The position numbers and the translations under genes are program-made. Of a stretch of 46,712 nt of DNA, positions 1-18,722 are shown one piece after another. The stretch comes from Thermofilum sp. NZ13 (GTDB lineage Archaea > Thermoproteota > Thermoprotei > Thermofilales > Thermofilaceae). The stretch is taken from positions 1 through 46,712 of the forward strand of contig NDWX01000014.1 in assembly GCA_002855745.1 (NCBI GenBank). The letters are read 5' to 3'. Position 1 is the stretch's first letter. Each line of letters starts with the position of its first letter. The notes beneath the pieces were generated by a model, which made no database searches, was not told the origin of the DNA, and saw only the letters and a list, made by a program, of their open reading frames with translations.

Positions 1-100
1 TATCAGGCGATACCGGCAGATATCAAATGATATCACCTGATATCACGCGAAATCACCTGATATCATGTGATATCAGGCGAAATCAAGAGATACCGGGTGA
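1..100. repeat. 10-bp tandem array, consensus TATCANNNGA
   Basis: Ten consecutive units of exactly 10 bp fill positions 1-100; each starts TATCA (variants TACCG, AATCA) and ends GA, with three variable bases between. An eleventh, decayed unit may follow at 101-110. The array is cut by the left window edge, so its true length is unknown. Ten is not a multiple of three and the frames carry stops or odd peptides, so a coding origin is unlikely. One unit per DNA turn would place repeated protein contacts on one face of the helix. A ParB-like gene begins about 0.9 kb away; a link between the two is inference. Confidence 0.85.
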
Positions 101-312
101 TGCCGCGCGGCGCCAGGGGGCTTGGCGCGGGCAAGGCCTCCCAGGGGGAGGTGAGGAGGGTCGCGGAGCTCGCCGAGAGGCTCACCACTTACAGTAAAGA
201 TGCCGCCCTACCCGGGGCGGAGCTCTACCTCATCCTGGAGAACCACGCGGTTCAACATAGCCTACCGGTCATGGACAAGGTTCTACACTACATAGCGGAG
301 AAGCTGGGATAA
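100..312 (+). CDS. Hypothetical protein, 70 aa
   Basis: I do not recognise this family. The frame opens at a GTG at 67 inside the 10-bp array, but ATG at 100, just after the array, is a more natural start. The product has a basic N-terminus, then a predicted helical stretch (VRRVAELAERLTTY) and a second helical segment near the C-terminus ending in YIAEKLG. It has no cysteine pairs, signal peptide or membrane segment. Codon use is rich in third-position G/C like the nearby regulator and ParB genes, which supports it being real. It could be a small DNA-binding or antitoxin-like protein, but nothing in the sequence proves that. Confidence 0.4.
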   Translation: MPRGARGLGAGKASQGEVRRVAELAERLTTYSKDAALPGAELYLILENHAVQHSLPVMDKVLHYIAEKLG

Positions 313-431
313 CCCAAGGGCAGCGGTAGCGCTAGGCTGGCTACAGGGGCCCTGCGCCTCGCTTTTCAGGCCGCGCAGCCCGGGCCCGTTTCCCTGAGGC
401 ACGCTGGGCTCGCCCTCCTGCGCCTCTGACT

Positions 432-560
432 CTACCCCGCGAGCGTGGAGCGCTTGAGCTCCTTCACCGCGCTCCAGAGGGGCTCGTGGAGGTACGCTGC
501 CCTCAGCTCCCCCAGGCTCACCGCGTAGCCGCCGACCACGACCAGCCTCCTGGGCTTCAT
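432..560 (-). CDS. Small hypothetical protein, 42 aa
   Basis: A short minus-strand frame starts at ATG (560) and ends at TAG (432). The product begins MKPRRLVVVGGYAVSLGEL, a beta-strand-like hydrophobic run with glycines, followed by an amphipathic helix rich in K, E and L. Codons end mostly in G or C, as in neighbouring genes. A TATA-like CTTATAAG lies 21-28 bases upstream of the ATG, suitable for a leaderless or short-leader transcript. No family is recognised. The promoter spacing and codon bias are the main support; it could still be chance. Confidence 0.45.
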   Translation of the reverse strand: MKPRRLVVVGGYAVSLGELRAAYLHEPLWSAVKELKRSTLAG

Positions 561-580
561 CACTATTGTTGGCCCCGGGG

Positions 581-588
581 CTTATAAG
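581..588 (-). promoter_or_regulatory. TATA box for the 42-aa gene
   Basis: CTTATAAG, a near-ideal archaeal TATA box, sits 21-28 bases upstream of the ATG at 560 in an otherwise GC-rich stretch. It is palindromic, so direction is set only by the downstream frame. The remainder of 313-640 shows no other convincing gene. Confidence 0.45.
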
Positions 589-640
589 GCGGCTAGCCGC
601 TTAAAAATGAGACGGGGGTATCGGTGAAAGTGGAAACGCA

Positions 641-931
641 CTAAGCCTTCGGCTCCCCCCACAGCTCCCTCGCCAGCTTGTCCAGCACCTCCGCCGCCCT
701 GCGGCCCTTCTCTGTGAGCGAGAAGACCCTGACCCTCTTCCCGAGCCTCCTCTCCGAGACCAGCTCGAGCTCCTTCAGGTCGAGGAGGATCTTCTCAGCG
801 TACTGGGAGTTCTCCACGCCCAGAGCCCTCATGATGTCCTTCTTGATCGCCTCCCCGCCAACGTGGAGGAGGAAAAGGAGGACGATGATGTGCCTCCTGT
901 TCAGCTCCCAGACGAAGCTGTACTCGCCCAC
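641..931 (-). CDS. Winged helix-turn-helix transcriptional regulator, 96 aa
   Basis: A small single-domain winged-helix protein of PadR/MarR-like appearance. Residues 14-60 form the helical part (IIVLLFLLHVGGEAIKKDIM then ALGVENSQYAEKILLDL), followed by a basic wing strand (RRLGKRVRVFSLTEKGRRA) typical of these domains. It has no ligand-binding extension, so it is probably a dimeric DNA-binding repressor or activator. The start is GTG at 931. It is divergent from the ParB-like gene at 1039, with a shared 107-bp promoter region that contains an inverted repeat (GGAAAC/GTTTCC), so autoregulation and control of the parB-like gene are plausible. The exact family is unresolved. Confidence 0.8.
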   Translation of the reverse strand: MGEYSFVWELNRRHIIVLLFLLHVGGEAIKKDIMRALGVENSQYAEKILLDLKELELVSERRLGKRVRVFSLTEKGRRAAEVLDKLARELWGEPKA

Positions 932-946
932 GCTCCCTGAAACGGG

Positions 947-968
947 GGAAACATTATTATTCGTTTCC
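947..968. promoter_or_regulatory. Inverted repeat GGAAAC-N10-GTTTCC, candidate operator
   Basis: Perfect 6-bp arms separated by an AT-rich 10-bp spacer lie 16 bases upstream of the winged-helix gene start, in the intergenic region shared with the ParB-like gene. The AT-rich spacer may itself hold the minus-strand TATA element. This is consistent with a dimeric winged-helix operator; binding is inferred. Confidence 0.45.
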
Positions 969-1038
969 GGTGAAATAGTGCTGTATTAATTGTTGTTAAA
1001 GCCCCAAGAATTTAAGACCTCGAGACCCCCTAGACTGT

Positions 1039-1941
1039 GTGAGCGTCGAGGTCGCCTACGTCCCCCTTGAGAGGCTGGACGTGAGCGAGGAGTACAACGC
1101 CCGCCGAATAGTGCCGGAGGAGGAGGTGCAGAAGCTCAAGGAGAACATCAGGCTCAACGGCCTCCTCCAGCCCCTCGTCGTGACGCCGCCCGAGGAGGGC
1201 GGGGACAAGCTCTACGTGGTCTGCGGGAGGCTGAGGCTCGAGGCCTTAAGGAGGCTCAGCAGGGAGGACCCCCAAGCGTTCCAGAGGCTCTTCCCCAGCG
1301 GCGTGCCCGTTATAGTCAGGAGGATGACTAGGAGGGAGGCGCTGATCCTCTCTCTGAGCGAGAACATCCGGAGGGGTAGTATGGGGAAGGACGAGGTCGG
1401 CGCTGCGGTGGCGGAGCTGGAGGAGCGGTTCGGGCTGAGCAGGGAGGAGGTTCAGAGGCGCCTCCAGATGGCTGGCCACGAGCTCGAGGTGATCATGCGC
1501 GTCTACAGGGCTCTGCGGAGGCCCGTGGCGAGCCCCGTGAAGCCTGGCAGGCCGAGGAGCGAGGAGAAAGAGAGGCCCGTCTCGAAGACCGGCAGGGTGG
1601 TGCTGCACATGGCTGTGAAGAAGCTGGCTGAGAGGGGTCTGGTGAGGGATGAGGGCGAGGCGATCAGGAGGCTGGAGGAGGTGGCCAGGGGGATGAGCGT
1701 GGGGGAGGCGAAGCAGCTGGCCCACAGGATCCGCTCAGACCCCTACCTGCTCCGCGACGAGGACAGGCTGCGCAGGGTCGTCGAGGAGATCAAGGCCACC
1801 AACTACGTCGACCGCCTCGTCTCCATACGGGCGGACCACGTCGCCAGGATAACCGCGATAGCCGAGAGGGAGGGCAAGACCTTCGACCAGGTCCTCAACG
1901 AGCTCCTCGACGCCGCCTTCGCGAAGCTTGGGTACAAGTAG
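1039..1941 (+). CDS. ParB/Spo0J-family protein with RHH-like C-terminal tail
   Basis: Residues about 5-115 are a ParB N-terminal (ParB/Srx) domain: PLERLDVS, then VVCGRLRLEALRRL matching the nucleotide-binding GxRR-type motif, and SLSENIRR matching the ENxxR box. Residues about 125-155 look like the central helix-turn-helix. The last ~45 residues (VSIRADHVARITAIAERE onward) resemble a ribbon-helix-helix/CopG dimerisation and DNA-binding unit, unlike the bacterial ParB C-domain. ParB proteins bind centromere-like repeats and act in DNA partition or transcription. No ParA partner is visible in the window. A GAATTTAAG TATA-like element about 25 bases upstream of the GTG at 1039 suggests a leaderless transcript. 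Codon use is GC-rich, as in the adjacent accessory genes. Confidence 0.85.
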   Translation: MSVEVAYVPLERLDVSEEYNARRIVPEEEVQKLKENIRLNGLLQPLVVTPPEEGGDKLYVVCGRLRLEALRRLSREDPQAFQRLFPSGVPVIVRRMTRREALILSLSENIRRGSMGKDEVGAAVAELEERFGLSREEVQRRLQMAGHELEVIMRVYRALRRPVASPVKPGRPRSEEKERPVSKTGRVVLHMAVKKLAERGLVRDEGEAIRRLEEVARGMSVGEAKQLAHRIRSDPYLLRDEDRLRRVVEEIKATNYVDRLVSIRADHVARITAIAEREGKTFDQVLNELLDAAFAKLGYK

Positions 1942-2412
1942 CCGCTCACGGGCAGTAAATTGACCCTCAGTGGATTACAGGGCTTACTGGAGCAATAAAT
2001 TGACCTAAACCTGCACTCTGTTAACCACAAAGAGTGTCCCTACCGCCGCAAGCATCGCCTCAGCGGCGCCCGCCAGCACACCGTTCCTCTAGCCGCTGCC
2101 GGTGAGCTGACCTGCCTCACTTACAGGCGCCTGAAGGCCTCTGGCAACGAGGCGTGCTCCTCGAGCGGGATGCGGCTGTCTTCGATGTAGACGGGCTTCT
2201 CGAAGCTTTACACTAGCGTGTCGGAGTGCCCTGGCTTCAGGCCACACAGATCCTCACAGGCAAGCCCACCTGCTCCTCGTAACCCCGCGCAGCGCGGAGG
2301 GGGCTTTGATCTTGCGAGGAGTGTGCACCCAGCCCCTCGGCCGTGAGCCCTCGCCTCGCCGCGGGTGTGCTGTATCGAAAACAATAATAATATCTGCTGC
2401 ACTGCTATAATC
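1942..2412. other. Intergenic region with repeats and probable gene remnants
   Basis: No intact gene is visible. TAAATTGACC occurs twice (1956-1965 and 1996-2005), exactly 40 bp apart. On the minus strand two short stretches read like protein ends: 2121-2207 (KPVYIEDSRIPLEEHA... ending at TAA, with an in-frame stop just upstream and no start) and 2237 to about 2285 (YEEQVGLPVRICVA then stop). These look like eroded C-termini of small genes. AT-rich sequence at 2383-2395 is the likely promoter of the downstream ATPase gene. Confidence 0.5.
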
Positions 2413-4218
2413 GTGCGGAGGCCAGTCTGGGTTATTCTCTTAGTGCTACCTCCCACTGTAGCCTGGCTCTACGCCAGCAACCTCCTTTCAACGGCCACTA
2501 ACCCGCTCATGTGGGCTTTAAGGGCGGTGTGGGGTGCTGTGGTGATGACAGGTGCCCTGGCTTTGAGCGTTGCCTTGGCAGTGTGGAGCAAGAACGATGT
2601 GACACTATTGAGGAGCGAGGATGGCGTCATCGTGGGCACCGCTGGCGTCTACGCGTTCGCGATGGCTGTTGGCTATGCGGCCTCGCCAATCCCCCTGGCG
2701 TCGCTGCCCGTTGCCGACAGGCTCGCTGTATCGGTTGCCCAGAGGGGAGCCTTCGTTGCCTGCGTCTACTTCTCACTACTCAGGCCTCCAGTGGAGAGGG
2801 CTAAAGTTGCTGCGAGGGCTCTGGAGGCCCTGGGGTTCAAGGTGATCGACACGAATGTGCCGACAATCACTGCTGGCCGGGCGATGCCCGTGGAGTACGC
2901 CGACGGCTTCGGAACAATCGTGGTGGAGAGGGACTGGAGGGGCAGGGAGAGGGCCTCGTTCTACCCCGTCACCGGCCGGGGAAAGAGGGTGTACATCATA
3001 TCCCTGCCGGCGAGGCACCAGGCTGAGCCCAGAGCCGTCAGGGAGGCGGTGAACAGGCTTTTAATGCTCGCTAGGCCCCCGGCGCCCGGGGAGGGCATCG
3101 AGATAGGGGAGTACGAGGGGGGTGGGGCTTTGCTCCTGCCGTTCAACACGCACGTCGGCGTGTTCGGCATCACGGGTGCCGGGAAGAGCTCGCTGCTGGC
3201 GCTCATAGCGAGGGACCTGCCGGAGGACGTCTTGATCATCGACTTCTGGGGAGAGTACGCTGGCCTCTACGGGTTCCACGTGGCTAAGCCCGTCGACCCT
3301 GTCGTGGAGCTTTCGGCGGAGGAGGCCGCCGAGATACTGGACAACAGCGCTGAGCTGGTGTGGGGCGAGGACGGGAGGTTCACGCCCATCGTGTACAACG
3401 TGGTGGTGCAGGCCGTGCAACGGGTGGCTGAGAGGGGCGTGGAGCCCACGGCCGAGGCGCTGGTGGCCGAGCTGAGGGCCTGGAGGGCGAGGGAGTCTAG
3501 GCCGGACGTGGCGGCGGCGATCGACGCGGCCCTCAGGCGGGTAGCGCTACTGGGCGGTGGAGGCTTCAGCACGAAGCTGAGGCTCGGCCGCACAGTCCTC
3601 GACTTATCGGGCTTGAGCGACTACGCCAAGGTGGCTGTGGCTAACGCGGTCATCTACCGCCTCCTCAAGACCCGCGCCCACCGCAGGCTCACCGTCATAA
3701 TCGACGAGGTCCACCGCCTGGCGCCGACGAGGGGCTACTCGAGGCCCCTCGAGAACCTGCTCCGCGAGGGCAGGGCGCTGAACATACGAGTAGTCATGGC
3801 GGACCAGACCCTCACGGCCGTGAACAGCGCGGCCGTCAGCCAGTGCGGGATGCTCATAATCTTCCAGCACAACCCCGCAGACCTGCCAGTGCTGCAGAGG
3901 ATGCTCGGCAGCATGGCCAGCGTCGTGACCTCGCTCCAGCCTAGGGAGGTCTTGGTGTGGCACGGTGGGGGCTGGAGGCGCGGCGTCATACACGAGGCGC
4001 CCCGCCTAGCACCCAAGGGAGTTGCTACAATGCAGGCTAGGATCGAGGAGGTCGCGAGGATAGTGGCTCAGAGGTACAGGGTTAAAGCCGATGACATCCT
4101 CGCGCTCTACGACCTCAAGGCTAGGCCCGAGGGCCTGGAGGAGCCACTGAGGAGCGCCTACAGGGAGTTCCTCGCCAGGATAGGCGAGCCCGCTGACCCG
4201 GGAAGCCCGGAGGAGTAG
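2413..4218 (+). CDS. Membrane-anchored HerA/VirB4-type ATPase, CedB-like
   Basis: About 601 aa from GTG at 2413; an ATG-type frame extension to 2365 exists but an AT-rich TATA-like tract (about 2385-2395) would then lie inside the gene. The N-terminal ~125 residues hold several hydrophobic segments (VWVILLVLPPTVAWLYA; WGAVVMTGALALSVALAVW; GVYAFAMAVGYAA; GAFVACVYFSLL). The ATPase core has Walker A GITGAGKSS (about 252-260), HerA-type IIDFWGEYAG, and Walker B with DEVHRL (about 455). Length, membrane N-terminus and HerA core resemble CedB of crenarchaeal DNA import (Ced/Ted), homologous to conjugation ATPases. No CedA-like or pilin partner is seen, so it could also be a chromosome-pumping or plasmid-transfer ATPase. 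The upstream ParB-like gene suits a DNA-handling module. Confidence 0.85.
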   Translation: MRRPVWVILLVLPPTVAWLYASNLLSTATNPLMWALRAVWGAVVMTGALALSVALAVWSKNDVTLLRSEDGVIVGTAGVYAFAMAVGYAASPIPLASLPVADRLAVSVAQRGAFVACVYFSLLRPPVERAKVAARALEALGFKVIDTNVPTITAGRAMPVEYADGFGTIVVERDWRGRERASFYPVTGRGKRVYIISLPARHQAEPRAVREAVNRLLMLARPPAPGEGIEIGEYEGGGALLLPFNTHVGVFGITGAGKSSLLALIARDLPEDVLIIDFWGEYAGLYGFHVAKPVDPVVELSAEEAAEILDNSAELVWGEDGRFTPIVYNVVVQAVQRVAERGVEPTAEALVAELRAWRARESRPDVAAAIDAALRRVALLGGGGFSTKLRLGRTVLDLSGLSDYAKVAVANAVIYRLLKTRAHRRLTVIIDEVHRLAPTRGYSRPLENLLREGRALNIRVVMADQTLTAVNSAAVSQCGMLIIFQHNPADLPVLQRMLGSMASVVTSLQPREVLVWHGGGWRRGVIHEAPRLAPKGVATMQARIEEVARIVAQRYRVKADDILALYDLKARPEGLEEPLRSAYREFLARIGEPADPGSPEE

Positions 4219-4255
4219 AAAAGAATAAATAAAACTATTTACAATATTATTTTAA

Positions 4256-4315
4256 GCCTGCAGAGGGTCCTGGAGCGCCGCCGAGCGGTGAAGCGGCGGG
4301 AGGAGCCCTGCAGGC
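4256..4315. repeat. Hairpin downstream of the HerA-like gene
   Basis: Perfect 8-bp arms GCCTGCAG (4256-4263) and CTGCAGGC (4308-4315) enclose further complementary segments (GGGTCCT/AGGAGCCC and CCGCC/GGCGG). It starts 37 bases after the stop codon and follows an AT-rich tract, so it could be a terminator, the start of a small RNA, or an element end. Confidence 0.5.
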
Positions 4316-4325
4316 GACACAGTGC

Positions 4326-4386
4326 TTCCCCGAGAAAACTGGCGCCCGTAGCAGGGGGAGGAGGGGGTGCCTGCACTCTCGGGGAA
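4326..4386. repeat. Second hairpin with 10-bp perfect arms
   Basis: TTCCCCGAGA (4326-4335) and TCTCGGGGAA (4377-4386) are exact inverted complements separated by 41 bp. It lies between the first hairpin and the left end of the TnpB element. No protein frame accounts for it. Confidence 0.55.
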
Positions 4387-4537
4387 AAGAGAGTGGGGCG
4401 AGAGGGGGTAGCGTAAGGCAGACCAGAGGCCCCGGGCACCTAGGCTACGCCGACCCCTTCGTGCTAGTGTTTAGGGGGGAGTGGCGGCCGGGGCCTGGGA
4501 GCCCGAGAGAAAGCCCCTTTAAAAACACCCTTTTTTA

Positions 4538-4598
4538 CCCCACGTAACCCCACCATTCACGCTCCTCAGGGACGTGGTGGGAGCGGGGTTACGTGGGG
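4538..4598 (+). repeat. Left-end hairpin of TnpB element, copy 1
   Basis: Perfect 14-bp arms CCCCACGTAACCCC (4538-4551) and GGGGTTACGTGGGG (4585-4598) flank a conserved core beginning ACCATTCACGCTCCTCAGGG. Copies at 42319-42373 and 42693-42752 keep the core but have different stem sequences that still pair. A T-rich run (TTTTTT) precedes each hairpin. This is the best conserved structural mark of the element. Confidence 0.85.
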
Positions 4599-5270
4599 GG
4601 CTGGGCCCCCCGTGAGGGGGGTGGCGGGCTACGTCGGTGAGGCTCCGCGCTTGTGGACGCTCCGCTCGTAGGGGCCTCCCGGCGTGGCAGCGGAGGCGTG
4701 AAGGTGCCGGCACGCGGGGCCGCGCCCCGATCGTAGGGGCCCGGCCCTGGGCCGGTAGTGCCCGCCCGCAAGCCGGCTGCCCGAGGCCTGCGCCCCGCTC
4801 CGCTCGCAGGGGCCTGGGCGCGGGCTAGGGCGGGGGGCTCTGCTCTCGGGCTACCCTACCCCGCCGCCCCCTGGCAGCCGGCCCCCTGCCCTCGGGGGTG
4901 GACGGGCCGCTAGCGCAGCGTTGGCGCCGCCGGGCCTGGGCTGGCTCGGCGGGAGGGCCGCATCAACAGCCCACGCGCCTGGGGCCGCGCGCGGCAGGCT
5001 GGGGCCGGGGTGGCCGAGTCACAGTGTGTGAGATTGTGCTCGTGACCGCTGATGCTGAGCGACGCGCCTGTGGACGCTAGCTCGCGCTGAGCTCTGCTAC
5101 TGTAACGACCGCTAGCTCACATGGTGTGAGACGCTACGCCGCCGCATAGCAGCGTACACCTCTGGGGGCTGGGCTTTGGCTGCGACTCCCCCGCACCTCA
5201 CGCCTCTGGGCGTGAGGGCGGATGGGGGCCGCGGCGCGAGGCCCGGCTCCCCGGTAAAAGGGGTGAGACT
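4599..5270 (+). ncRNA. Candidate structured leader RNA of TnpB element, copy 1
   Basis: This 670-bp stretch has no credible protein frame but matches the corresponding leader of copy 2 (41661-42318) over nearly its whole length, with conserved blocks such as GGTAGTGCCCGCCCGCAAGC and ACGGGCCGCTAGCGCAGC. One hairpin next to tnpB shows compensatory change between copies. This suggests a transcribed structured RNA, or a DNA structure, belonging to the element. In known TnpB systems the guide (omega) RNA is at the 3' end, so a long 5' structure is unusual. Whether it is transcribed cannot be seen here. Confidence 0.45.
5196..5217 (+). repeat. Hairpin upstream of tnpB, copy 1
   Basis: CCTCACGCC (5196-5204), loop TCTG, GGCGTGAGG (5209-5217): a perfect 9-bp stem with a tetraloop. 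In copy 2 (41717-41738) the stem is CCCCGCTCC/GGGGTGGGG with loop TCCG, still fully paired with two G-U pairs. Confidence 0.75.
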
Positions 5271-6677
5271 ATGAGCGGGGAAGGTAAGGGGAGTAAAAAC
5301 GGCGAGAAGCTCTTCGACGCGTACAGGGTCTGGGAAGTCAAGGCGAACAGGGAGCTGAGGTTGAGGCTCCGAAAGCTCTACTACGACATCGCCTCTGCGG
5401 TTGAGCGGGCCAGCGAGGAGCTCGAGAGGAAGCACGGCGACGCGTTCAGGAGGGAGCCGGGGAGGTTCAGAGAGGAGTTGATCGAGGGGGCCTCAAGGAT
5501 TGCGGGGCTGCCGAAGGGTCTCTTCTGGTACGCCGCGGAGTGGCGCAGGATGGTCGCGGAGGCCAGGGGGAAGTCTAAGAGGCGGAGCAGGTTCACACCG
5601 CCAGCGGTGCCGCTACTCGTGAAGGTGGTCAACGGCAACGAGAGGCTTCACGGCGGCGGTAACGCTGTTGCGGTGCTTGATGCCTCCAGTGGCATGCTAC
5701 GCGTCCCCAGTGCCAGCCTCACTGTGAGGCTGAGGCCCTCCCTTATCAAAGCAGTGCTCGAGGATATCCAGAGGTTCAGTGACGTGAAGCTGACTTTACA
5801 GCTCACAGCAAAGGGGAGGCTGAGGCTGGTGGCTCAGCGCAAGGTGAGGCCACCATGGTGGGACGGCGACGGCAAATTGGCCATCGTAGCGGTGGACGTG
5901 AACTCGAGCCACGGGCTCTACCTGATGGCCTTCGCATTCGACGGCGAAGTCAGGCTCATTGCTCAGCGCGTCTTCAAGCCGCCCAACACCACGTTGCTGA
6001 GGCTGCTGGCGGCGCTACTGCGTAGCTACTCCAAGGTTAAGTGCTGGAGTGAAGCCGTCGAGAGGTTCAGGGAGAGGAGGGACGTCAGGGGGCTGCAGAG
6101 AACGGGAAGGAGCCACGCGGTGGATGAGGCCTTGAGGCTCGCTGAGAGGCTCAGGGCGAAGATAAACATGACGCCGGAGCGCGCCGAGAAAGTAGCGGGG
6201 CAGGCGTCGAGGAAGGTTCGAAAACTCAACGACGACTGGATTCGCAGCGTGCTCAGGGAGATGAGGGTGCTGGTGAGAAAGCTACGGGACCAGGGCTACC
6301 TCGTCGTCATCGTCGTCGACGTGCCCCGGGCCGAGTCCCTCAGGGGCTCGCAGCTGCAGAGGACGCTGCTCAGAGTGGCGAGGAGGCTGGAGAACCTCGC
6401 TCTCTACGAGGGAGCGAAGTGGTTCGAGCCTGACAACAACGTCTCGGGCAAGTGGTGCCCACTGTGCGGGAAAGAGGGGGTGGAGGTTCAGAAGCGCTAC
6501 TACCGCTGCACGGGCTGCGGCCTGGTCTACGGCAGGGACTGGGCCACAACGTTCAACGCCGCCAAGCTCTTTTTAAAGGCCTGCGATACGAAGAAGCAGC
6601 TCGAGGCGCTACAGAGCTGGCTGCAGAGCCACCCACGAGCTCTGATTCACGGCTCGCTCAGCTTCCCCAAGCGGTGA
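5271..6677 (+). CDS. tnpB: TnpB-like RNA-guided nuclease/transposase accessory protein
   Basis: 468 aa. The C-terminal half is TnpB/OrfB-like: RuvC-I at AVDVNSSHG (D209), a long helical insertion, a RuvC-II position at VVIVVDVPRAES (D350, or E355), a four-cysteine zinc ribbon (CPLC 396/399 and CTGC 413/416), and RuvC-III at GRDWATTFNAAK (D423). The N-terminal ~200 residues would be the WED/REC region. Known TnpB proteins are omega-RNA-guided DNA nucleases. The usual RuvC-II Glu appears to be Asp here and in copy 2, so activity is uncertain. Start ATG follows a GGGGTGAG ribosome-binding site. It is full length and about 70-75% identical by eye to the copy at 40248-41660, with no frameshift, implying both are recent or maintained. 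Confidence 0.88.
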   Translation: MSGEGKGSKNGEKLFDAYRVWEVKANRELRLRLRKLYYDIASAVERASEELERKHGDAFRREPGRFREELIEGASRIAGLPKGLFWYAAEWRRMVAEARGKSKRRSRFTPPAVPLLVKVVNGNERLHGGGNAVAVLDASSGMLRVPSASLTVRLRPSLIKAVLEDIQRFSDVKLTLQLTAKGRLRLVAQRKVRPPWWDGDGKLAIVAVDVNSSHGLYLMAFAFDGEVRLIAQRVFKPPNTTLLRLLAALLRSYSKVKCWSEAVERFRERRDVRGLQRTGRSHAVDEALRLAERLRAKINMTPERAEKVAGQASRKVRKLNDDWIRSVLREMRVLVRKLRDQGYLVVIVVDVPRAESLRGSQLQRTLLRVARRLENLALYEGAKWFEPDNNVSGKWCPLCGKEGVEVQKRYYRCTGCGLVYGRDWATTFNAAKLFLKACDTKKQLEALQSWLQSHPRALIHGSLSFPKR

Positions 6678-6870
6678 AGGAGAGGAGGAGGCCCCGGCCC
6701 CCAGTTCCCGCTACGGCGTGTAGCCGTCTGGCGGGTGCCGCGCGCGGCGCGATGAGGCGAAGAGGCGCCGAGGCTAAAGCCCCGCCGCACAGCCCCTAGC
6801 TGGCGTATATTGGCGGGGCGGGCCGAAGGCGCGGAGCCCATGAAAACCCTTAAAAGGGGCCCTCAGAAGA
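6678..6870 (+). ncRNA. Conserved 3' region of TnpB element, candidate omega-RNA
   Basis: After the tnpB stop, about 190 nt are almost identical in both copies. A strong hairpin lies at 6707-6735 (CCCGC-ACGGC-GTGTA-GCCGT-GCGGG arrangement) followed by the palindrome GCCGCGCGCGGC. The copies differ mainly by a short indel near 6800. In studied TnpB elements the omega-RNA overlaps the tnpB 3' end and right end, so this is the expected place; transcription is inferred. Confidence 0.45.
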
Positions 6871-6900
6871 GTGAAGGGGGCAGATGAGCCGGGCGCGGCC

Positions 6901-8559
6901 GTGGTCTGGTCTGAGGTCTTTGAGATAGAAGAGATAGACCTGATGGGGCGTAAGGGTAAGCTTCACACGAGGAAAGGTGTAGTGGAGACGCCGACCCTGG
7001 CACCCGTGATTAACCCTGGGAAGCAGCTCATACCGCCTAAGGATATCGTGGAGATGGGGTTCCCACTGCTGATAACAAATGCCTACATAGTCAAGAGAAA
7101 CTATGGTGAGCTAGCCAAGGAGCTTACGGTCCACGGCATACTCGGGGTGGACGGCCCGGTGTACACTGACTCGGGAGCCTACCAGCTACTTGTGTACGGA
7201 AGAGTGGACGTAGATCCCTTAGAGATCTTCACATACCAAGTTGAGATAGGCTCCGACATCGGGGTCATTCTCGACATACCTACTAGGCGCGACACGCCCT
7301 ACACTCAGGCCCGCGAGGAAGTCGAGGAGACTCTTAGAAGGCTCCGAGAGGCCTCAAAGATCGACCGAAAGGGTATGCTTCTCGTTGCCCCGATACAGGG
7401 CGGTGTTCACGCCAGCCTCGTCGCGTACTCGGCGTCTCAGGCTTCACGAGAAGACGCGGACATTTTTGCCGTTGGAGGCCCCACGCAGTTCATGGAGCAA
7501 TACGAGTACTCAGAGGTTGCTAAGCTTGTCATGACTGCTAGGCTCAATCTGCCTTGGAGCGCCCCGCTTCACTTATTCGGGGCAGGACACCCTATCATTA
7601 TGCCGCTTGCCGTGGCCATGGGTGTTGACATCTTTGACTCAGCGTCCTACGCGCTGTACGCGCGAAACGATAGGCTCCTCACTCCAAGAGGCACGCTCAG
7701 GCTAGAGGAAGTCGACGAGCTCCCCTGCACGTGCCCTGTGTGCTCCAAATACAACGCAGAGGAGCTAAGAGAGATGCCGAAACAGGAACGTGTAAGGTTG
7801 ATTGCAGAGCATAACCTCTACGTCATCCAGCTTGAACTGAAGAGAATAAGGCAAGCTATCCATGAGGGCAGGCTCTGGGAGCTCGTCGAAGAGAAGTCTC
7901 GGAGCCACCCGGCTCTTGCTGATGCCTTCAAGACGTACATCAAGTATAGCGAGTTTGTAACAAAAGTTCACCCCGTTACACGCTCCCGTGTGCAGGGCAT
8001 ATTCTTCTACGACAGAACCAGCAGGTACAGACCTGAGGTAGTGCGCCACATCAACAGGTTAAAGTACAGATTTAGAGGTAGAAGCGATGTACTTCTTCTG
8101 TTCGAGGAAACACCCCACAAACCCTTCACGAGGTTCGGGCTCGTAAAGGAGATTCTAAACGACAAGCCGGAGCTGTTCGCACAATGCGACATTGCCGTGC
8201 TCTCCGGCGCGTTCTCGATAATCCCGATCGAACTTGATGGTTTTTACCCGTTGTCTCAGTACGAAGCCAGCAGCATGGTGTTCGAGGAAGCTGAGGAGGA
8301 GATTAGAGAGGATGTGGTTTGGTTCATTCTGATCAACGAGTATCGGGGGCTCGTCCTAGTCTACCACTCCCTGCCGCACAGCTTCGTGTCGAAGCTCACT
8401 GCGAGGCTATCTGGTGAGAATGTGATAACGATGCCTGTCAAGTTGAAGGACTACTATTCCGCGCTTAGAGACCATGTGAGAACCTCTGAAAATGTGGAGA
8501 AGACGGTGAGAACCGTGAAGGCACTTATACGTAATAGTGTGGAGGCTCCCTCTCTTTAG
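6901..8559 (+). CDS. tgtA: Archaeosine tRNA-guanine transglycosylase
   Basis: Exchanges G15 of archaeal tRNA for preQ0, the first step of archaeosine formation. The catalytic domain is evident: ETPTLAPVINPG, YTDSGAYQ with the nucleophilic Asp, IGVILDIPT, GGVHASL, and a zinc site PCTCPVC plus a downstream His (EHNLYVI). The C-terminal ~180 residues look like the archaeal C1 region, but no PUA domain follows. The frame also opens at GTG 6871, yet the first ten codons there match sequence at the right end of TnpB copy 2, so GTG at 6901, one residue before VWSEVFEIEEIDL, is the preferred start (552 aa). A CTTAAAAGG TATA-like element at about 6850 may come from the element. Confidence 0.92.
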   Translation: MVWSEVFEIEEIDLMGRKGKLHTRKGVVETPTLAPVINPGKQLIPPKDIVEMGFPLLITNAYIVKRNYGELAKELTVHGILGVDGPVYTDSGAYQLLVYGRVDVDPLEIFTYQVEIGSDIGVILDIPTRRDTPYTQAREEVEETLRRLREASKIDRKGMLLVAPIQGGVHASLVAYSASQASREDADIFAVGGPTQFMEQYEYSEVAKLVMTARLNLPWSAPLHLFGAGHPIIMPLAVAMGVDIFDSASYALYARNDRLLTPRGTLRLEEVDELPCTCPVCSKYNAEELREMPKQERVRLIAEHNLYVIQLELKRIRQAIHEGRLWELVEEKSRSHPALADAFKTYIKYSEFVTKVHPVTRSRVQGIFFYDRTSRYRPEVVRHINRLKYRFRGRSDVLLLFEETPHKPFTRFGLVKEILNDKPELFAQCDIAVLSGAFSIIPIELDGFYPLSQYEASSMVFEEAEEEIREDVVWFILINEYRGLVLVYHSLPHSFVSKLTARLSGENVITMPVKLKDYYSALRDHVRTSENVEKTVRTVKALIRNSVEAPSL

Positions 8560-9262
8560 CCATCTGCTTAATCTTATTCTCCAGCTCTTCTAGCTCTCGC
8601 TCCACGAGCTCACCCTCCCTTATAAGTTCCTCGACGCTCACTGCGCTGTTGAAGAGCTCGCTGTAGGCTCTTAACGCCTCAGCCGCAGCCCTTGGGTCAG
8701 GTCTATCCGGGGCGGCATAGGGGAGAATGGCTACAGCAGGTAGCTCGCGGGACTCAAATATAGATAGAATTACCGCGAGTGGACCTACTACGCCTAGGCC
8801 CTCTTCCATCAACCTGTACTTCTGCCCGAGGAACAGTTCCTTTCGAGCCTCGTAGAACGCTGTGGTGGGTGCGAGCCTTATGCTGTCGTCTTGCTTGAAC
8901 CTGTTATCGAGGCCTCCGAAAAGTACAGCTTCAGTGACGCCGTTCTCGATGACCTCCTCAGCCAGTGTTCGCGTAACCAAACTAACGTCCTTGTCACTTA
9001 GTGGTACGTTCGGGAGAAAGTACAGGGTTTCCCCAGCGACGTAGAGCTCGTACGGGGTTCTTATGCCGTTTTTCACTGAGACGAACGGCTGCATGTAAGG
9101 CGAGATAACGTGCCCTACTCTTACGGTTCCAGCTTTCTCCACAAGGTGCTTTACCGCTATCCAGCCAACATGCCCTATGCCATGGAAGCCCGTTATGAGC
9201 CTAGACGCTTTGAACTCTCTGTTGAGGACTATCTGGACTCTTCCGCGAGTAGTTATTCTCAT
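8525..9262 (-). CDS. PAC2-family protein (proteasome assembly chaperone-like)
   Basis: 245 aa matching the archaeal PAC2/COG2047 family: an N-terminal GFHGIGHVGWIAVKHL segment, a YELYVAGETLYFLPNVPLSD stretch-like core, GGLDNRF, and a conserved EGLGVVGPLAVIL near the middle. Eukaryotic relatives help assemble proteasome alpha rings; the archaeal role is not settled. The C-terminus (after about 205) is a charged predicted coiled coil (ELVERELEELENKIKQM). It is convergent with tgtA and overlaps its 3' end by 35 bp. It begins at an ATG at 9262, and an own promoter would lie in 9263-9457. Confidence 0.85.
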   Translation of the reverse strand: MRITTRGRVQIVLNREFKASRLITGFHGIGHVGWIAVKHLVEKAGTVRVGHVISPYMQPFVSVKNGIRTPYELYVAGETLYFLPNVPLSDKDVSLVTRTLAEEVIENGVTEAVLFGGLDNRFKQDDSIRLAPTTAFYEARKELFLGQKYRLMEEGLGVVGPLAVILSIFESRELPAVAILPYAAPDRPDPRAAAEALRAYSELFNSAVSVEELIREGELVERELEELENKIKQMAKEREPPHYYV

Positions 9263-9302
9263 AAAGCACTAGCCACCCGGGGTATGTAGCGCCGCCACCT
9301 TA

Positions 9303-9354
9303 AAAAGTTGACCTGGTTGTCAGCGGTCATCAACGTCGTAGCATAAAGTTGACC
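9303..9354. repeat. Pair of AAAGTTGACC motifs
   Basis: AAAAGTTGACC ends at 9313 and TAAAGTTGACC at 9354, with TTGACC motifs 41 bp apart, in the divergent intergenic region between the PAC2 and S8e genes. A similar pair with 40-bp spacing occurs at 1956-2005. Function unknown. Confidence 0.4.
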
Positions 9355-9457
9355 GATGCGACCAGCTTCACAGGGACTTTTTCGATATATCATGAAGAGT
9401 GTGTCAATGAGCTAGAAAGGCTTAAAAAGTGCTCAGAGTAGTGTAGAGGGGAAAGGC

Positions 9458-9850
9458 ATGGGGGTATACCACGGCAACGATCTCAGAAAGATAAGTGGAG
9501 GACTTAAGGGTAAGCACGTGAAGGTAAAAAGAAAATACCTGAGCGGCCGCTATCCCCTAAATCCAACCGTCGGTGAAGTAACGGAAGTCAAGATTTTGCG
9601 CGCGAGGGGCGGTAACTGCAAATTAAAGGTTAAAACGGTGAGTGTCGCCAACGTTTACATCCCTAGCCAAAAGAAGACTGCTAGAGTTAAAGTCCTTAAA
9701 GTAATAGACAACCCGTCCAACAGGAACCTCGCCAGGAGAGGTGTAATAACGCGGGGAGCAATCATTCAGACAGAGTTGGGTAAAGCTATAGTCACGTCAC
9801 GCCCGGGCCAGGACGGTGTAGTAAACGCCGTTCTCGTTGAAGGCTCATGA
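9458..9850 (+). CDS. rps8e: Small-subunit ribosomal protein S8e
   Basis: 130 aa, the usual archaeal S8e length, basic, with the family start GVYHGNDLRKISGG, a central KVKILRARGG-like strand, and C-terminal NRNLARRGVITRGAIIQTEL followed by VTSRPGQDGVVNAVL. It is a component of the 30S subunit shared with eukaryotes. A CTTAAAAAG TATA-like box at about 9421 lies 37 bases before the ATG, with GAGGGG as ribosome-binding site. Its last codons overlap srp19 (ATGA), so the two are co-transcribed. Confidence 0.96.
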   Translation: MGVYHGNDLRKISGGLKGKHVKVKRKYLSGRYPLNPTVGEVTEVKILRARGGNCKLKVKTVSVANVYIPSQKKTARVKVLKVIDNPSNRNLARRGVITRGAIIQTELGKAIVTSRPGQDGVVNAVLVEGS

Positions 9851-10149
9851 GGAAAAAAGAGGGAAAAATCATCTGGGCGGCCTACTTCGACTCAGCGTTG
9901 CCCCGTGACAAGGGTCGGCGCGTACCCAAGAGCCTTTCCGTGGAGAAGCCCCGTTTGGAGGAGATCGCTCGGGCTGCTGAAAGAGCTGGCTTCAGCGTAG
10001 TCTCGATCGACCAAGACGCGAAATTCCCAGCTTTTTGGTTTGAGAGCGGAGGTAGGGTGATCGTAAAAACATCCGAAAGAAAGAGTGTCGTCATTAGGAG
10101 AATCGCTGAAAAACTAAAGGAACTTAGGGGAGAGATTAAGAAGAGATAA
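9847..10149 (+). CDS. srp19: Signal recognition particle protein SRP19
   Basis: 100 aa, normal for archaeal SRP19. Family hallmarks are IIWAAYFDSALPRDKGRRVP (the RNA-binding start), a helix with LEEIARAAERAGF, and a C-terminal basic stretch after GGRVIVKT. SRP19 binds 7S RNA helices 6 and 8 and promotes SRP54 binding in membrane targeting. It overlaps rps8e by 4 bp and is convergent with gatE, overlapping it by 14 bp. Confidence 0.95.
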   Translation: MRKKEGKIIWAAYFDSALPRDKGRRVPKSLSVEKPRLEEIARAAERAGFSVVSIDQDAKFPAFWFESGGRVIVKTSERKSVVIRRIAEKLKELRGEIKKR

Positions 10150-12037
10150 CATCCTGCAATTTCTTCCTAACGACCTCGGCTACCAGCTTACCATCTATTC
10201 TGCCCCTGACCTTCCCCATAACCTCGCCCATTATCGGGCTGAAAGCCCTTTCGCCTTTCTCTCGGATTAATGGCATCTTCTCAGAGATCACCTGATCAAC
10301 GAGCTTCTCGAGTTCCTTTACCGTTAACGAGTGTAGTGAAAGCTTTTCAACAACCGCATCGAAGCTGAGCTCAGGGTTCTCGGCAATAGCTCTCAAGATA
10401 TCTGGTATCGCCTCTTTAGCAACCTTGCCCTCCGCAACAGCCTTCATCAATTGCAGAATATGATCCTCGTCGATGTTTTCCACCTGAACTCCCTCCCTCC
10501 TAAGGCTTCGTAGCGTGTTTGTCAGAACTGTTGCAACCAGAACTGGGGGGGCTCCCGTCTTCTTTACAAGCTCCTCGAAGAGGAATAGGTGTTCCGAGTC
10601 AAATAATTGCTGCGCGAGATCCTCTGAGAGACGATACTCTCTTTTCAATCTCTCAAGTGTCTTCTCCGGAGGCTCGGGTAGCTCTTCTGCCAACTGCGAA
10701 AGTAGCTCTCTTGGAATCCTGATCGGCCTCACATCGGTTTCTGGATACATCCGGGCTTTCCCGGGCCTAGGCCTCATGAACCTTGTCGTGCCATCTGGAT
10801 TCGCAGCCCGAGTCTCCTCGGGAACTCCTTGAAACGCCTCAAGTATTCTAGCGTGAACCGCCTCTAACGCTTTGTATGCCTTCTCTTTCTCGTCGAAAAT
10901 GAGCACAAATGCGTCCTCATCACCGGCTCCCAGAGCTCTCTTTACCTCCTCCACTTCCTCCTTCGTTATACCGTACGCTGGAAGCTCGTCGCTGTGGAAT
11001 ATACCCCCGACTTTACCCCAGTAGCGCGCCCTGTCTGCTAGCTCCGTGCCGAAGCGCCTACCGGGCTGGATCTCCGTCCCCAGTATGCCTTTAAAGCCTT
11101 TCAGCTTTAATGCGAGAGCGACACCACCTTTCTCAAGCGCGCTCCTAGCAACCTGCGACTTAGTGTTTTTGAAAACTCCTGTAACGTCTACTGGGGAGAA
11201 AAGTATATCATCCCCTGACAAACCTCTTCTCTTTAATTCGTCCCTGATCTCCAGGAGCTTTTTCTGCCGCTGCGCCTCGTTCGCGACAACTATTGGAATC
11301 AGGTCGAGATACTGAACACCTTTAATCTCAACCCTGGCTCCTCCTTCGATGGAGATGTTAAGGTCCTGCCTTATTGTTCCCAGCCCCCTCTTTACGCGGC
11401 CCAGCGACCTAAGCAGAAGCCCTATGTAGTGCGCCACTTCCCTAGCCTCCTCCGGCGTCTCAATAACTGGTCCTGTTGCTACTTCTATTAGTGGTATTCC
11501 AAGCCGATCTAACCTATAGGTCACTGTCCTGCGGGCGGGATCCTCCTCCATTTTCCTCGCGGCATCCTCTTCGAGGCATATGGTCTCTATCGGCACCTCT
11601 TTACCGTTAACGCTTATGTGTCCGTCGACCGCTACGAGCATTGTCCGCTGGAAGCCCGTCGTGTTAGAGCCGTCGATCACAATCTTCCTCATAACGTGAA
11701 TCTCATCCACTACATGGGCTCTCACGAGCAGGGCGAACTTGAGGGCTAGCTCTAGAGCTTCCCAGTTAGGCTGATGGGGCGGCTCTTCGTCCATCTCAAC
11801 GAGGCACGTGTTCTCGTGATACCCTTCATAAACAAAGCTTAGACCCTTTTCGAATTCGAATAGCGCTGCGGGGTCTACTTCACCTATCTCGCTTCGCGCG
11901 AGCCGCAGTCTGCGGACAAAACTATAGTCTGCTTTCTCTTTCTTGACCACTGTGGGGCACGCGCAGAAGAGTTTTCTTTCCGTATCGAGCATTTGGTGTA
12001 TTTCTATGCCGCACTTGATGCGAGGAAGGCTTGACAT
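10136..12037 (-). CDS. gatE: Glu-tRNA(Gln) amidotransferase subunit E
   Basis: About 633 aa. Transfers ammonia to Glu-tRNA(Gln) after phosphorylation, forming Gln-tRNA(Gln); the archaeal GatE partner of GatD. Evidence: N-terminal CGIEIHQMLDTERKLFC, GatB-like EMDEEPPHQPN, DGSNTTGFQRT, VEVATGP-like catalytic cradle (PLIEVATGPVIETPEEA), LGTIRQDLNISI, a GatE-specific AspRS-like insertion (residues about 270-410), and a YqeY-like tail ending SPIMGEVMGKVRGRIDGK. GTG at 12049 is possible, but ATG at 12037 lies just after the gatD stop with GGTGG upstream and is preferred. Same operon as gatD. Confidence 0.95.
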   Translation of the reverse strand: MSSLPRIKCGIEIHQMLDTERKLFCACPTVVKKEKADYSFVRRLRLARSEIGEVDPAALFEFEKGLSFVYEGYHENTCLVEMDEEPPHQPNWEALELALKFALLVRAHVVDEIHVMRKIVIDGSNTTGFQRTMLVAVDGHISVNGKEVPIETICLEEDAARKMEEDPARRTVTYRLDRLGIPLIEVATGPVIETPEEAREVAHYIGLLLRSLGRVKRGLGTIRQDLNISIEGGARVEIKGVQYLDLIPIVVANEAQRQKKLLEIRDELKRRGLSGDDILFSPVDVTGVFKNTKSQVARSALEKGGVALALKLKGFKGILGTEIQPGRRFGTELADRARYWGKVGGIFHSDELPAYGITKEEVEEVKRALGAGDEDAFVLIFDEKEKAYKALEAVHARILEAFQGVPEETRAANPDGTTRFMRPRPGKARMYPETDVRPIRIPRELLSQLAEELPEPPEKTLERLKREYRLSEDLAQQLFDSEHLFLFEELVKKTGAPPVLVATVLTNTLRSLRREGVQVENIDEDHILQLMKAVAEGKVAKEAIPDILRAIAENPELSFDAVVEKLSLHSLTVKELEKLVDQVISEKMPLIREKGERAFSPIMGEVMGKVRGRIDGKLVAEVVRKKLQDVISS

Positions 12038-12039
12038 AC

Positions 12040-13386
12040 TTACCACCACCCCATCGCCCCTGGGTAGTGCCTGTACTCGTTCCTCTCGGAGAACTCGTAT
12101 GCTATCCTCGTTTTGAAGAGTCTTTGGGCTTCTTCAAGGTCGCTTGTTTGGCCGAAAATCCAGCTAAGCTTAACGTAGGCCGTTTCAGATAGCATGTTCC
12201 CAGCCGGTACCACTCCCGCTTTCAGAAGCTCTACACCAGTCCTGTAGACGTTAAGGTTCACTGATCCCCAGAGGCACTGAGACGCCATTACCACCATCAC
12301 CCCGTCCTTCACGAGAGAGCGTATGGTGTCGATGAGTTTGCTGTTTACATGGCCCAATCCCGTGCCTTCGATTACCAGACCTACGTAGCCTTCTTCTCTG
12401 TAGAACTCGAGCAGAGAGGACGGCATTCCAGGGTAGAACTTCACCAACGCTACCTTCTCGCTGAACTCGGGGTAGACTTCGACCTCCTCTGCCCGCTTTT
12501 TGTACCCGGGTTGAAAAGCATCGATCTCCCTTGTGAACGGGTTAACTTTGGCCAAAGGTAGGCTGTTCACGCTTATGAAGGCGTCTCTTCTACTCGTGTG
12601 CATTTTCCTAGCCCTCACGCCTCTATGAACAAGAAGCACATCGTCGCTCACGGACCCATGCATCACCAGCACTGACTCCGCGAAGGGGGCTTTAACAGCG
12701 GTAATCGCCGCTCCTATCACGTTGAGCGCGGAGTCGCTTGATGGCCTGTCCGAAGACCTTTGAGCGCCTGTAAACACTATCGGTCCCGGTGCCTTCTGAA
12801 CGGCGAATGCCATAGCCGATGAGGAATAGTGCATGGTGTCTGTTCCGTGAGCAACAACTACACCCGAGGGTGATTTCGAGGCGAAGGCTTCGCCTATCTT
12901 CTTAGCTAGCTCCGACCAGTGATGAGGGGTCATATCCTCGCTGAAAATGCTGAAAATCGTTTCGCTCGTCACCACAGCTAAGTCCGCGAGCTCCGGTATC
13001 ATCGCGTACAGATCCTCGGCAGAAAAATACGGGTAAACAGCACCGGTGGCATAGTCGACCCTCGACGCTATGGTGCCGCCGGTGCCAATGAAGTGTACCG
13101 TTCCCTCAGCTTTAGTCTCCCGTGTAACCTTTTCCGCTGTGAGCCCTACTCTACCGCTCGTCTCAATCAACTTCACCTCAGTTATACGATCTGCGGCAAT
13201 TCCGATATTATACCCATTGTCAAGCTTTAAAACGAGAAAATCTTGTTCTCCCACTTGAGGACGGGGAAGGACGATGCCTCTAAACGTGACGCCGTCTTTT
13301 AGCCTAACGAGAACTACGTCGAAGATACCTGCTCCCGCGCTGGCGAGGAGCTCACTGACCCTCCGACCGTAGCCAGCTACTGCCAT
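12040..13386 (-). CDS. gatD: Glu-tRNA(Gln) amidotransferase subunit D
   Basis: 448 aa asparaginase-type subunit that releases ammonia from Asn/Gln for GatE. An N-terminal beta-barrel region (VVLVRLKDGVTFRGIVLPRP) precedes the amidohydrolase core: FIGTGGTIASRVDYATGAV with the catalytic Thr, then VVAHGTDTMHYSSSAMAF with the second Thr-Asp pair, and VHRGVRARKMHTSRRDAF. C-terminal ASQCLWGSVNLNVY is also typical. It is first in a two-gene operon with gatE, separated by two bases. Archaea with GatDE usually lack GlnRS; nothing here contradicts that. Confidence 0.96.
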   Translation of the reverse strand: MAVAGYGRRVSELLASAGAGIFDVVLVRLKDGVTFRGIVLPRPQVGEQDFLVLKLDNGYNIGIAADRITEVKLIETSGRVGLTAEKVTRETKAEGTVHFIGTGGTIASRVDYATGAVYPYFSAEDLYAMIPELADLAVVTSETIFSIFSEDMTPHHWSELAKKIGEAFASKSPSGVVVAHGTDTMHYSSSAMAFAVQKAPGPIVFTGAQRSSDRPSSDSALNVIGAAITAVKAPFAESVLVMHGSVSDDVLLVHRGVRARKMHTSRRDAFISVNSLPLAKVNPFTREIDAFQPGYKKRAEEVEVYPEFSEKVALVKFYPGMPSSLLEFYREEGYVGLVIEGTGLGHVNSKLIDTIRSLVKDGVMVVMASQCLWGSVNLNVYRTGVELLKAGVVPAGNMLSETAYVKLSWIFGQTSDLEEAQRLFKTRIAYEFSERNEYRHYPGAMGWW

Positions 13387-13540
13387 GAGGACTCCGCATC
13401 AACCAAGACCGCTTCCCGGTTAAAAGGTTTCACTCGATGGCGTCTCATATGCAGCTCTTCAAATGCCGTCGCTTGAACCAGCACCTGCCTAGTGGAAACG
13501 CTTATATTTGCCGATAGCTTTGACTGAGCTGGGTAAGGTT

Positions 13541-13699
13541 ATGCCGTCTCACGGTAGCCTCACTAAGGCTGGAAAAGTCAGAAACGCTACTCCGAAGATA
13601 CCTCCAAAACCAAAGAAGAACCTCATACCGAGGAGGAGGAACTTCAGGAACTATAAAAGGAGGGTGCTTTACTCAGCCTCTACTCAGGCAAGCGCTTAG
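13541..13699 (+). CDS. rps30e: Small-subunit ribosomal protein S30e
   Basis: 52 aa, strongly basic, with the S30e pattern HGSLTKAGKVRNATPKI and PRRRNFRNYKRRV. The frame opens earlier at 13508, but ATG at 13541 preceded by GGTAAGG gives the family length. A CTTATATTT TATA-like element at 13500-13508 supports this start. Its 3' end overlaps the convergent RNase III-like gene by 27 bp. Confidence 0.93.
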   Translation: MPSHGSLTKAGKVRNATPKIPPKPKKNLIPRRRNFRNYKRRVLYSASTQASA

Positions 13700-14029
13700 G
13701 GTTCGATCGATCAGCAGAGCTATAGCTACCTCTAGGGCTTTACCTGAAGTTAAAGCTTTATACAGGAACTCCACAGCCTGTTCACTTGACAAGCAGTTGT
13801 TTAACCATGCATAGCTCAGCAGTGCTTCCACGCTCTCTGCGGGGTCCCAGTCGTGTGGTAACTTGATGTTGGTCAGTGCCGAGAGCTTATAAGCCTCTCT
13901 AAGCGTTTTTCTTGGGGTCTTGATTCCCTGGGCTTTCCCAGATGCTAGGGATAGAGCCGCAGATGTTACGAAGTTTATAAACGCATCGCCAAGTTTAGCC
14001 AGATCCTTGTCTGTTAGGACCCTTCTCAG
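13673..14029 (-). CDS. Archaeal RNase III-like protein, CTG start
   Basis: About 118 aa. The frame is open from a TGA at 14051 but has no ATG, GTG or TTG before the conserved LTDKDLAKLGDAFINF. A CTG at 14027-14029 overlaps the RpoL stop as CTGA, the same 4-bp geometry as the ATGA overlaps elsewhere in the window, and is the best start. The LGDAFINF helix, EAYKLSAL and SVEALLSYAW resemble the archaeal ribonuclease III-like family (Ribonucleas_3_2), which has an RNase III helical fold; the acidic catalytic residues and any activity are not proven. It follows rpoL and aKMT in an operon. Too short and oddly started for ordinary gene finders. Confidence 0.7.
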   Translation of the reverse strand: MRRVLTDKDLAKLGDAFINFVTSAALSLASGKAQGIKTPRKTLREAYKLSALTNIKLPHDWDPAESVEALLSYAWLNNCLSSEQAVEFLYKALTSGKALEVAIALLIDRTLSACLSRG

Positions 14030-14313
14030 CTTGTCTGAGCCCGTATCTGCTCACGCATCGCTTCGAGCTTTTTTCTCAATGAATCCACAGCCACTCGGAG
14101 GGCGTCTAAAGGGGTGAGGGTTCCGTCGGTTCTTATAAGGAGATACGCCACCCCGAGTAGTGGGTGGTCCACTCTGTATGATGCAGTAACATGAGGGTTT
14201 CTGTTTAGCTCATCCACTAGCATGTTAAGCAAAGTATGCCCCTCGCCCGAAACCCTGACTTCTAGCGTAGTCTGAGACATGTTTTCAATCGAGATCGAGA
14301 GCTCCTCGGGCAT
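14026..14313 (-). CDS. rpo11: RNA polymerase subunit L (Rpo11)
   Basis: 95 aa from ATG 14313. Contains the Rpb11/alpha-like dimerisation core: VSGEGHTLLNMLVDELNRNP followed by ASYRVDHPLLGVAYLLIRTDG and a C-terminal helix (LRVAVDSLRKKLEAM). Rpo11 pairs with Rpo3 in polymerase assembly. A longer frame to 14370 would overlap the upstream methyltransferase by 53 bp and add residues not typical of the family; ATG 14313 is 4 bases after the methyltransferase stop. Downstream, its TGA overlaps the CTG of the RNase III-like gene. Confidence 0.94.
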   Translation of the reverse strand: MPEELSISIENMSQTTLEVRVSGEGHTLLNMLVDELNRNPHVTASYRVDHPLLGVAYLLIRTDGTLTPLDALRVAVDSLRKKLEAMREQIRAQTS

Positions 14314-14317
14314 GAGG

Positions 14318-14836: not shown

Positions 14837-14968
14837 TCAGGAACAGGCCCGGGTATTATCGATTAGCTACATTGCAGTTCAAGAGTTCCAAATATTTAAA
14901 AATAGAAATACCCACGCTTACCTCACATGCGAGTGATTTAGATTACCATATGAGACGTTTGTAAAAAT

Positions 14969-14992
14969 GATGTAAAGAATATATTTTACATC
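14969..14992. promoter_or_regulatory. 24-bp palindrome over TATA box, candidate Lrp operator
   Basis: GATGTAAA (14969-14976) and TTTACATC (14985-14992) are perfect inverted 8-bp arms around an AT-rich spacer, GAATATAT, that is itself the likely TATA box. The GTG start of the Lrp-like gene is 16 bases downstream. Occupation by a dimeric regulator would block TBP binding, so negative autoregulation is the simplest reading. Confidence 0.65.
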
Positions 14993-15007
14993 CACACAAG
15001 ATTAGAT

Positions 15008-15472: not shown

Positions 15473-15638
15473 AGGTTACACAACCGGGAACCGCGCCCCG
15501 GCAACTCCCCCTCAAGTGTGTTTCAAGGGATAAAAGCGGTAGGGGCAATTTAGACCTCTCGCTTAACCTGGGTCGCAGAGCGGTTCAGAGGCACCCTTCT
15601 CTTGAGCTGGAGTTGGAAAGAGGTGGGTAGGCCGGTGG

Positions 15639-17728: not shown

Positions 17729-17732
17729 TCGG

Positions 17733-18714: not shown

Positions 18715-18722
18715 TAATCAAC

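Follow-up and report, generated by a model that had tools for sequence, protein, structure and literature searches.

A helix-phased 10-bp repeat array in a zinc-finger gene of Thermofilum, next to an Orc1/Cdc6-like ATPase gene: a candidate iteron-type origin

Some origins of replication lie within the genes of their own initiators. In phage lambda, the origin iterons are found inside gene O, with P acting as the loader (PMC5043065, PMC4488673), and in phage SPP1 the direct repeats of oriL lie inside gene 38, with gp39 as the loader (PMC6316719). Plasmid iterons are generally helix-phased (PMC5043065). Palindromic sites may also serve partition, as in pNOB8, where AspA binds a palindrome upstream of its own gene and then spreads (PMC5120986). 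Here we describe a 10-bp repeat array in Thermofilum sp. NZ13 and compare it with these systems. We lean towards reading it as an iteron-type origin array within the zinc-finger initiator gene of an integrated accessory element that also carries ParB and HerA genes, the array in the window being a remnant.

The window, that is, the whole stretch of 46,712 bp that was analysed, is an entire contig (G000:C6:1-46712) of a 1.88-Mb assembly in 33 contigs. Its first 100 bp consist of ten units in an unbroken 10-bp register, as the first-pass annotation had proposed, with a self-identity of 68-71% at lags of 10, 20 and 30 bp (z 8.6-9.4, the lag-10 value being 8.6). The largest z among 500 dinucleotide shuffles over 41 lags was 3.9, which rules out a chance origin, and Tandem Repeats Finder calls the array at periods 10, 20 and 30. 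A CRISPR-like array was also rejected, given the 10-bp unit and the absence of spacers. The consensus first given, TATCANNNGA, fits six of the ten units exactly and fails at units 2, 6, 9 and 10 (TACCG, AATCA, AATCA and TACCG); a direct ATCA per turn, often grown to the palindrome TGATATCA, describes the unit more faithfully. The stated lack of length variation holds for the window copy only, 13-bp steps being present in other copies. The array is indeed cut at its left edge, as had been noted, but this edge is the end of the contig, and the assembly has nothing to its left.

The array was initially thought to be without coding sense, a view that did not survive comparison with the rest of the genome: frame 3 is open across it and has 70% identity to residues 89-136 of an intact 229-aa zinc-finger protein encoded at C17. 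In the window this gene is broken (Table 1). A 2-nt deletion near 113-117 shifts the frame of the zinc-finger remnant, and the ATPase remnant fused to it is broken by a stop at 310-312. The window copy is thus a pseudogene fragment, frameshifted by the 2-nt deletion past the array and fused by the deletion that joins the linker to the ATPase tail; the gene and part of the array have been lost. Its array is probably inactive, and at best it would serve as a decoy. The ParB-like and HerA genes are close by, as first described, although the connection to ParB is one of neighbourhood only.

Table 1. Features at the left end of the window (positions in bp)
Feature	Position	Strand
Array of ten 10-bp units, core ATCA / TGATATCA per helical turn, truncated by contig end	1..100	.
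Zinc-finger gene remnant, decapeptide-repeat linker in an open frame (homologous to C17 residues about 89-127)	3..117	+
Zinc-finger gene remnant, part just past the linker, now in frame 1	118..197	+
Orc1/Cdc6-like ATPase gene remnant, C-terminal (lid) part, fused to the linker by deletion	198..427	+
96-aa winged-helix (wHTH) protein (HTH_27 / ArnR1-like)	641..931	-
Intact 300-aa ParB-like protein with a ParB_N domain; the genome has four paralogues	1039..1941	+
617-aa HerA-type ATPase (DUF87)	2365..4218	+

Pattern and DNA searches of the same genome revealed three further arrays, at C17:~6000-6150, C29:~6330-6480 and C29:~90010-90170. All four arrays sit in paralogous loci or their fragments and unit arrays are found nowhere else, so the genome does not hold many unrelated copies of the consensus. 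The deletion joining the zinc-finger linker to the ATPase tail is the same in C6 (the window) and C29:90k, and the 2-nt deletion after the array is common to C6 and C29:6.3k. The sole intact array-bearing copy is C17, where the gene order is a RadA paralogue and a Cas4-like gene (divergent), the zinc-finger protein, an AAA+ ATPase (203 aa), the wHTH protein and the ParB-like protein. The C17 array, about 153 bp in length, lies in frame inside the C2H2 zinc-finger gene, 200-355 bp past the start codon, and encodes DIRQNQEVSQADIRRDQPISGDTGRYQVISRGDITRNQLISSDIRRNQEVS, a linker flanked by an N-terminal C2H2/zinc-ribbon domain, with the zinc finger at residues 36-58, and a conserved C-terminal tail, LPSFARDNPWLRVLAERG (LPSFxxDNPWLxVL). 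It is therefore located within coding sequence between protein domains, which is not the case in the broken window copy. The stop codon of the zinc-finger gene overlaps the ATPase start. A second intact zinc-finger/ATPase pair, at C30, has a different linker repeat of 30 bp (10 aa) with a weaker 10-bp sub-period.

The first-pass annotation had named location in a coding frame as an argument against a DNA-level function. The array is indeed coding, or formerly so, and in frame in C17, but a coding array does not exclude a DNA role, since known origins lie within initiator genes. Three 10-bp units correspond to ten codons, so that one DNA unit is read in three phases; because a 10-aa protein repeat needs just a 30-bp period, the shorter period of 10 bp belongs to the DNA. 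Alignment of all four copies shows variation at 3 of 59 sites in the ATCA portion of the unit versus 23 of 88 elsewhere (rotation-corrected permutation p = 0.006), while third codon positions, variable at 6 of 51 compared with 22 of 102 for first and second positions combined, show no excess. The conservation evidence is moderate, since this windowed test alone was significant, whereas a test of variability across the ten register positions gave p = 0.20. Together, ATCA conservation and the codon-position pattern point to a constraint on DNA sites and not on protein, in a small sample where three of the four copies are broken genes. Both features speak against the possibility that the array is the trace of a decapeptide-repeat linker, spread by slippage of 10-bp units and without DNA function. 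We regard this explanation as quite unlikely, even with the C17 array in frame, an unrelated 30-bp repeat in the linker of the C30 paralogue, and 13-bp steps that keep the frame.

The gene overlapping the zinc-finger frame encodes an ATPase whose profile matches the AAA+ and lid domains of Orc1/Cdc6 (2qby, E 2e-10), with a score against the NCBIfam ORC1-type model (E 2e-13) that is far below the cut-off. The protein ends at 203 aa, before the winged-helix domain, and is thus not a full Orc1/Cdc6 initiator composed of AAA+, lid and C-terminal winged-helix domains. The locus resembles archaeal Orc1/Cdc6 and ORB origins in these two shared domains and in the position of the initiator gene beside its candidate sites, and differs from them in lacking the winged-helix domain, in scoring so low and in an array that is not ORB-like. 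All five intact pairs show this overlap of the zinc-finger frame with the ATPase start, as would fit a two-component initiator; the ATPase gene would be the adjacent, co-translated AAA+/loader gene, and we infer that its product loads a helicase. A search for the ATPase beyond the archaeal class yielded, in genome contigs, one convincing relative, at the coordinates of the G018 match, along with generic AAA matches; viral contigs yielded generic AAA matches only. No description of a zinc-finger/Orc-like pair was found in the open-licence literature.

The C-terminal sequence LPSFxxDNPWLxVLxxRG is common to many otherwise unrelated, mostly DNA-binding-type proteins across the archaeal class (the C-terminus of L039:5666-6355; L070, L071, L072, L050, L051, L053, L046, L048 and L281:4026-4523) and looks like a docking tail for a common, putative partner. 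Since the tail also occurs in genomes without the ATPase, this partner may be another protein. A possible recombination module is present in a distant family of the class: the row of genes at L281:2180-4523 encodes a RadA paralogue, a SWIM-like protein rich in Cys, a protein of 163 aa and a zinc-finger protein with a coiled coil and the NPWL tail.

The complete genome of the same species, G061, contains neither the ATPase nor the array. Window positions 1-4310 have no counterpart in G061, while positions 6900-20000 are 97% identical to one stretch of it. The boundary at about 6900 is sharp, with accessory DNA on its left side and DNA matching the complete genome on its right. Between the accessory and the G061-matching parts, at 4313-6900, lies a multicopy element with a TnpB/Cas12f-like gene, relatives of which occur at about ten places in G061 with 74-79% identity. 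A tblastn search of PLSDB with the zinc-finger protein returned no matches, and the plasmid relatives of the ParB-like protein were remote matches only.

Three relatives carry the zinc-finger/ATPase pair: G004, from the same genus, G011, from the same family, and G018, from the same order. The zinc-finger linkers of the first two lack the decamers and have a coiled-coil look; instead, phased CGYAWTRCG palindromes, spelled unlike the C17 unit, are found directly upstream of the zinc-finger gene. Their spacings are 10-13-10, three times over, in G004, while the G011 array extends for about 415 bp with steps of 10, 20-22 and 42/43 bp. Pairs of CGYAWTRCG 10 bp apart occur in these two genomes only at the zinc-finger-gene array and in none of 11 other genomes, and TGATATCA pairs 10 bp apart are absent from 12 relatives. 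Counts of perfect palindromes did not separate the G004 and G011 arrays from shuffles because the 9-bp units have an unpaired centre. The G011 upstream array also contains, at L123:4985-5080, 43-bp long inverted repeats, GCGTATCCCGAT...ATCGGGATACGC, centred on CGYAWTRCG pairs spaced by 10 bp. The gene pair in G018 has no array, nor was one seen at the place inspected in G001, G002 and G014, which carry the ATPase, wHTH and ParB genes without the zinc-finger gene. The contrast between the G004 and G011 arrays and the zinc-finger-less relatives suggests that, except in G018, the zinc-finger gene goes together with an array of one site per turn whose unit and position shift: a phased array stands at this gene in the genome of the window and, upstream, in G004 and G011. 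Phasing by 10 bp outside the coding sequence of the same gene is a further argument against a repeat maintained at the protein level.

These comparisons also bear on the suggestion that the array is a centromere, bound by the wHTH (AspA-like) or the ParB-like protein for partition. Both genes lie less than 2 kb from the window array and, as in the AspA-ParB-ParA system of pNOB8, a small wHTH protein adjoins a protein with a ParB N-domain; a ParA-like gene is present in relatives, for example G002. In contrast to pNOB8, the wHTH gene is divergent, the ParB-like protein has 300 rather than 470 aa, and no ParA gene lies near the window array. A profile search with the wHTH protein matched many wHTH chains weakly, none named AspA among the matches listed. 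The array tracks the zinc-finger gene and does not travel with the wHTH and ParB genes: loci with ATPase, wHTH and ParB genes alone show no array where inspected, and the unit changes completely between lineages in which the wHTH and ParB proteins stay alignable. A centromere is thus very unlikely. The array had originally been described as origin- or centromere-like and tied to ParB; the proposal is supported in its origin-like form by the association of the array with the zinc-finger/ATPase pair in three lineages and the occurrence of the decamers in phage initiator genes, while the tie is to this pair and not to ParB as such.

When 2.9 million viral contigs were scanned, three exact units were present in nine of them; BLAST searches with the repeat as query returned no matches, probably owing to low-complexity filtering. 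In three of the nine contigs (L283, L284 and L290) the array is in frame and encodes the inter-domain linker of a protein of replication-initiation type: L284 matches, at 1e-32, the PHROG family "replication initiation protein", L283 has a DUF6291 phage protein that is a putative case, and L290 was assigned through its N-terminal resemblance to L284. L284 and L290, phrog_270-type initiators, carry TGATATCANN decamers in this linker. In the remaining contigs the array is mostly outside any convincing gene, and in two it precedes a hicA-like gene. Relatives of the L284 initiator were then examined, leaving out those that contain the repeat peptide used in the search. Of 40 non-redundant ones, 11 show strong 10-bp periodicity in the linker, compared with none of the 287 other ORFs that their contigs carry (p = 2e-11). 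Lags of 8, 9, 11 and 13 are not enriched in these linkers, and lag 12 is weakly so. The unit sequences vary among the periodic phage initiators; 10-bp periodicity with many different units is again not what a protein-level repeat would suggest. HMM searches found no link between the phage initiators, which are bacterial phage proteins, and the archaeal zinc-finger protein, so that the likeness is one of array and position only.

The viral contigs also bear on the main rival explanation, an autoregulatory operator: the zinc-finger or wHTH protein would bind the phased sites to repress or activate the operon that encodes it, and the array would have no part in an origin. At L286:4350-4892 and L288:2-568, TGATATCA decamers lie directly upstream of the hicA-like toxin gene and are possibly an operator there; the motif alone is consequently no proof of an origin. 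The G004 and G011 arrays, which end shortly upstream of the zinc-finger start codon, would suit an operator as well. However, the C17 array is downstream of its start codon, the phage counterparts are enriched in initiator linkers, and arrays of 150-415 bp are long for an operator. We therefore consider an operator unlikely.

The origin reading is favoured by the restriction of the array to paralogous loci, its DNA-level periodicity, the overlapping gene pair, the kinship of the ATPase to Orc1/Cdc6, and the phage parallel. Against it stand the G018 pair without an array, the C30 linker, whose mainly 30-bp period suits a protein repeat, and the upstream position of the arrays in G004 and G011. 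From these features we infer that the zinc-finger protein binds the array, that the ATPase is recruited and that the array acts as an origin, in the following scheme. The zinc-finger protein would be the origin-binding initiator, many copies of which would occupy short sites lined up on one face of the DNA, one at each helical turn. The bound proteins would then recruit as loader the co-encoded Orc1/Cdc6-like AAA+ ATPase, which would have lost its own winged-helix DNA-binding domain. The pair would correspond, in two genes, to lambda O-P or SPP1 gp38-gp39, and the first of these genes would contain the origin.

The proposed arrangement is similar to that of lambda, where phased repeats also lie within the coding sequence of an initiator that binds DNA N-terminally, next to the gene of a loading factor, and where the minimal origin of about 164 bp (PMC4488673) is close in size to the C17 array. 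It differs in that lambda iterons are 19 bp long, have inverted symmetry and bind O dimers, in contrast to the 10-bp units found here, and in that the zinc-finger protein is unrelated to O and the Orc-like ATPase replaces P. With SPP1 the likeness is at the level of arrangement, direct repeats in an initiator gene (gene 38/oriL) with an adjacent loader gene (gp39), although the protein families are different (PMC6316719). As in iteron plasmid origins, the repeats are helix-phased and beside a putative rep gene, in a 10-bp register. Typical iterons have twice the length of this unit. More tentatively, and as a possibility that we hold with some doubt, the locus may represent a split archaeal initiator, consisting of a zinc-finger origin binder and an Orc1/Cdc6-like loader without a winged helix, with a 10-bp-phased origin in the linker of the initiator, that arose independently of the tailed-phage initiators with the same decamer.

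If the origin reading is correct, a type of origin known from a few phages is also used by an archaeal element whose proteins are unrelated, and an Orc-like ATPase has passed DNA binding to a zinc-finger partner. Should the split-initiator reading also be true, linker arrays with one site per turn would be a general, largely undescribed origin design, recognisable by 10-bp self-similarity in the linker of a DNA-binding gene beside an AAA+ gene. With this signature, candidate origins could be found in uncultured archaeal and phage replicons from sequence alone, as the contrast between 11 of 40 initiator relatives and 0 of 287 other ORFs suggests.
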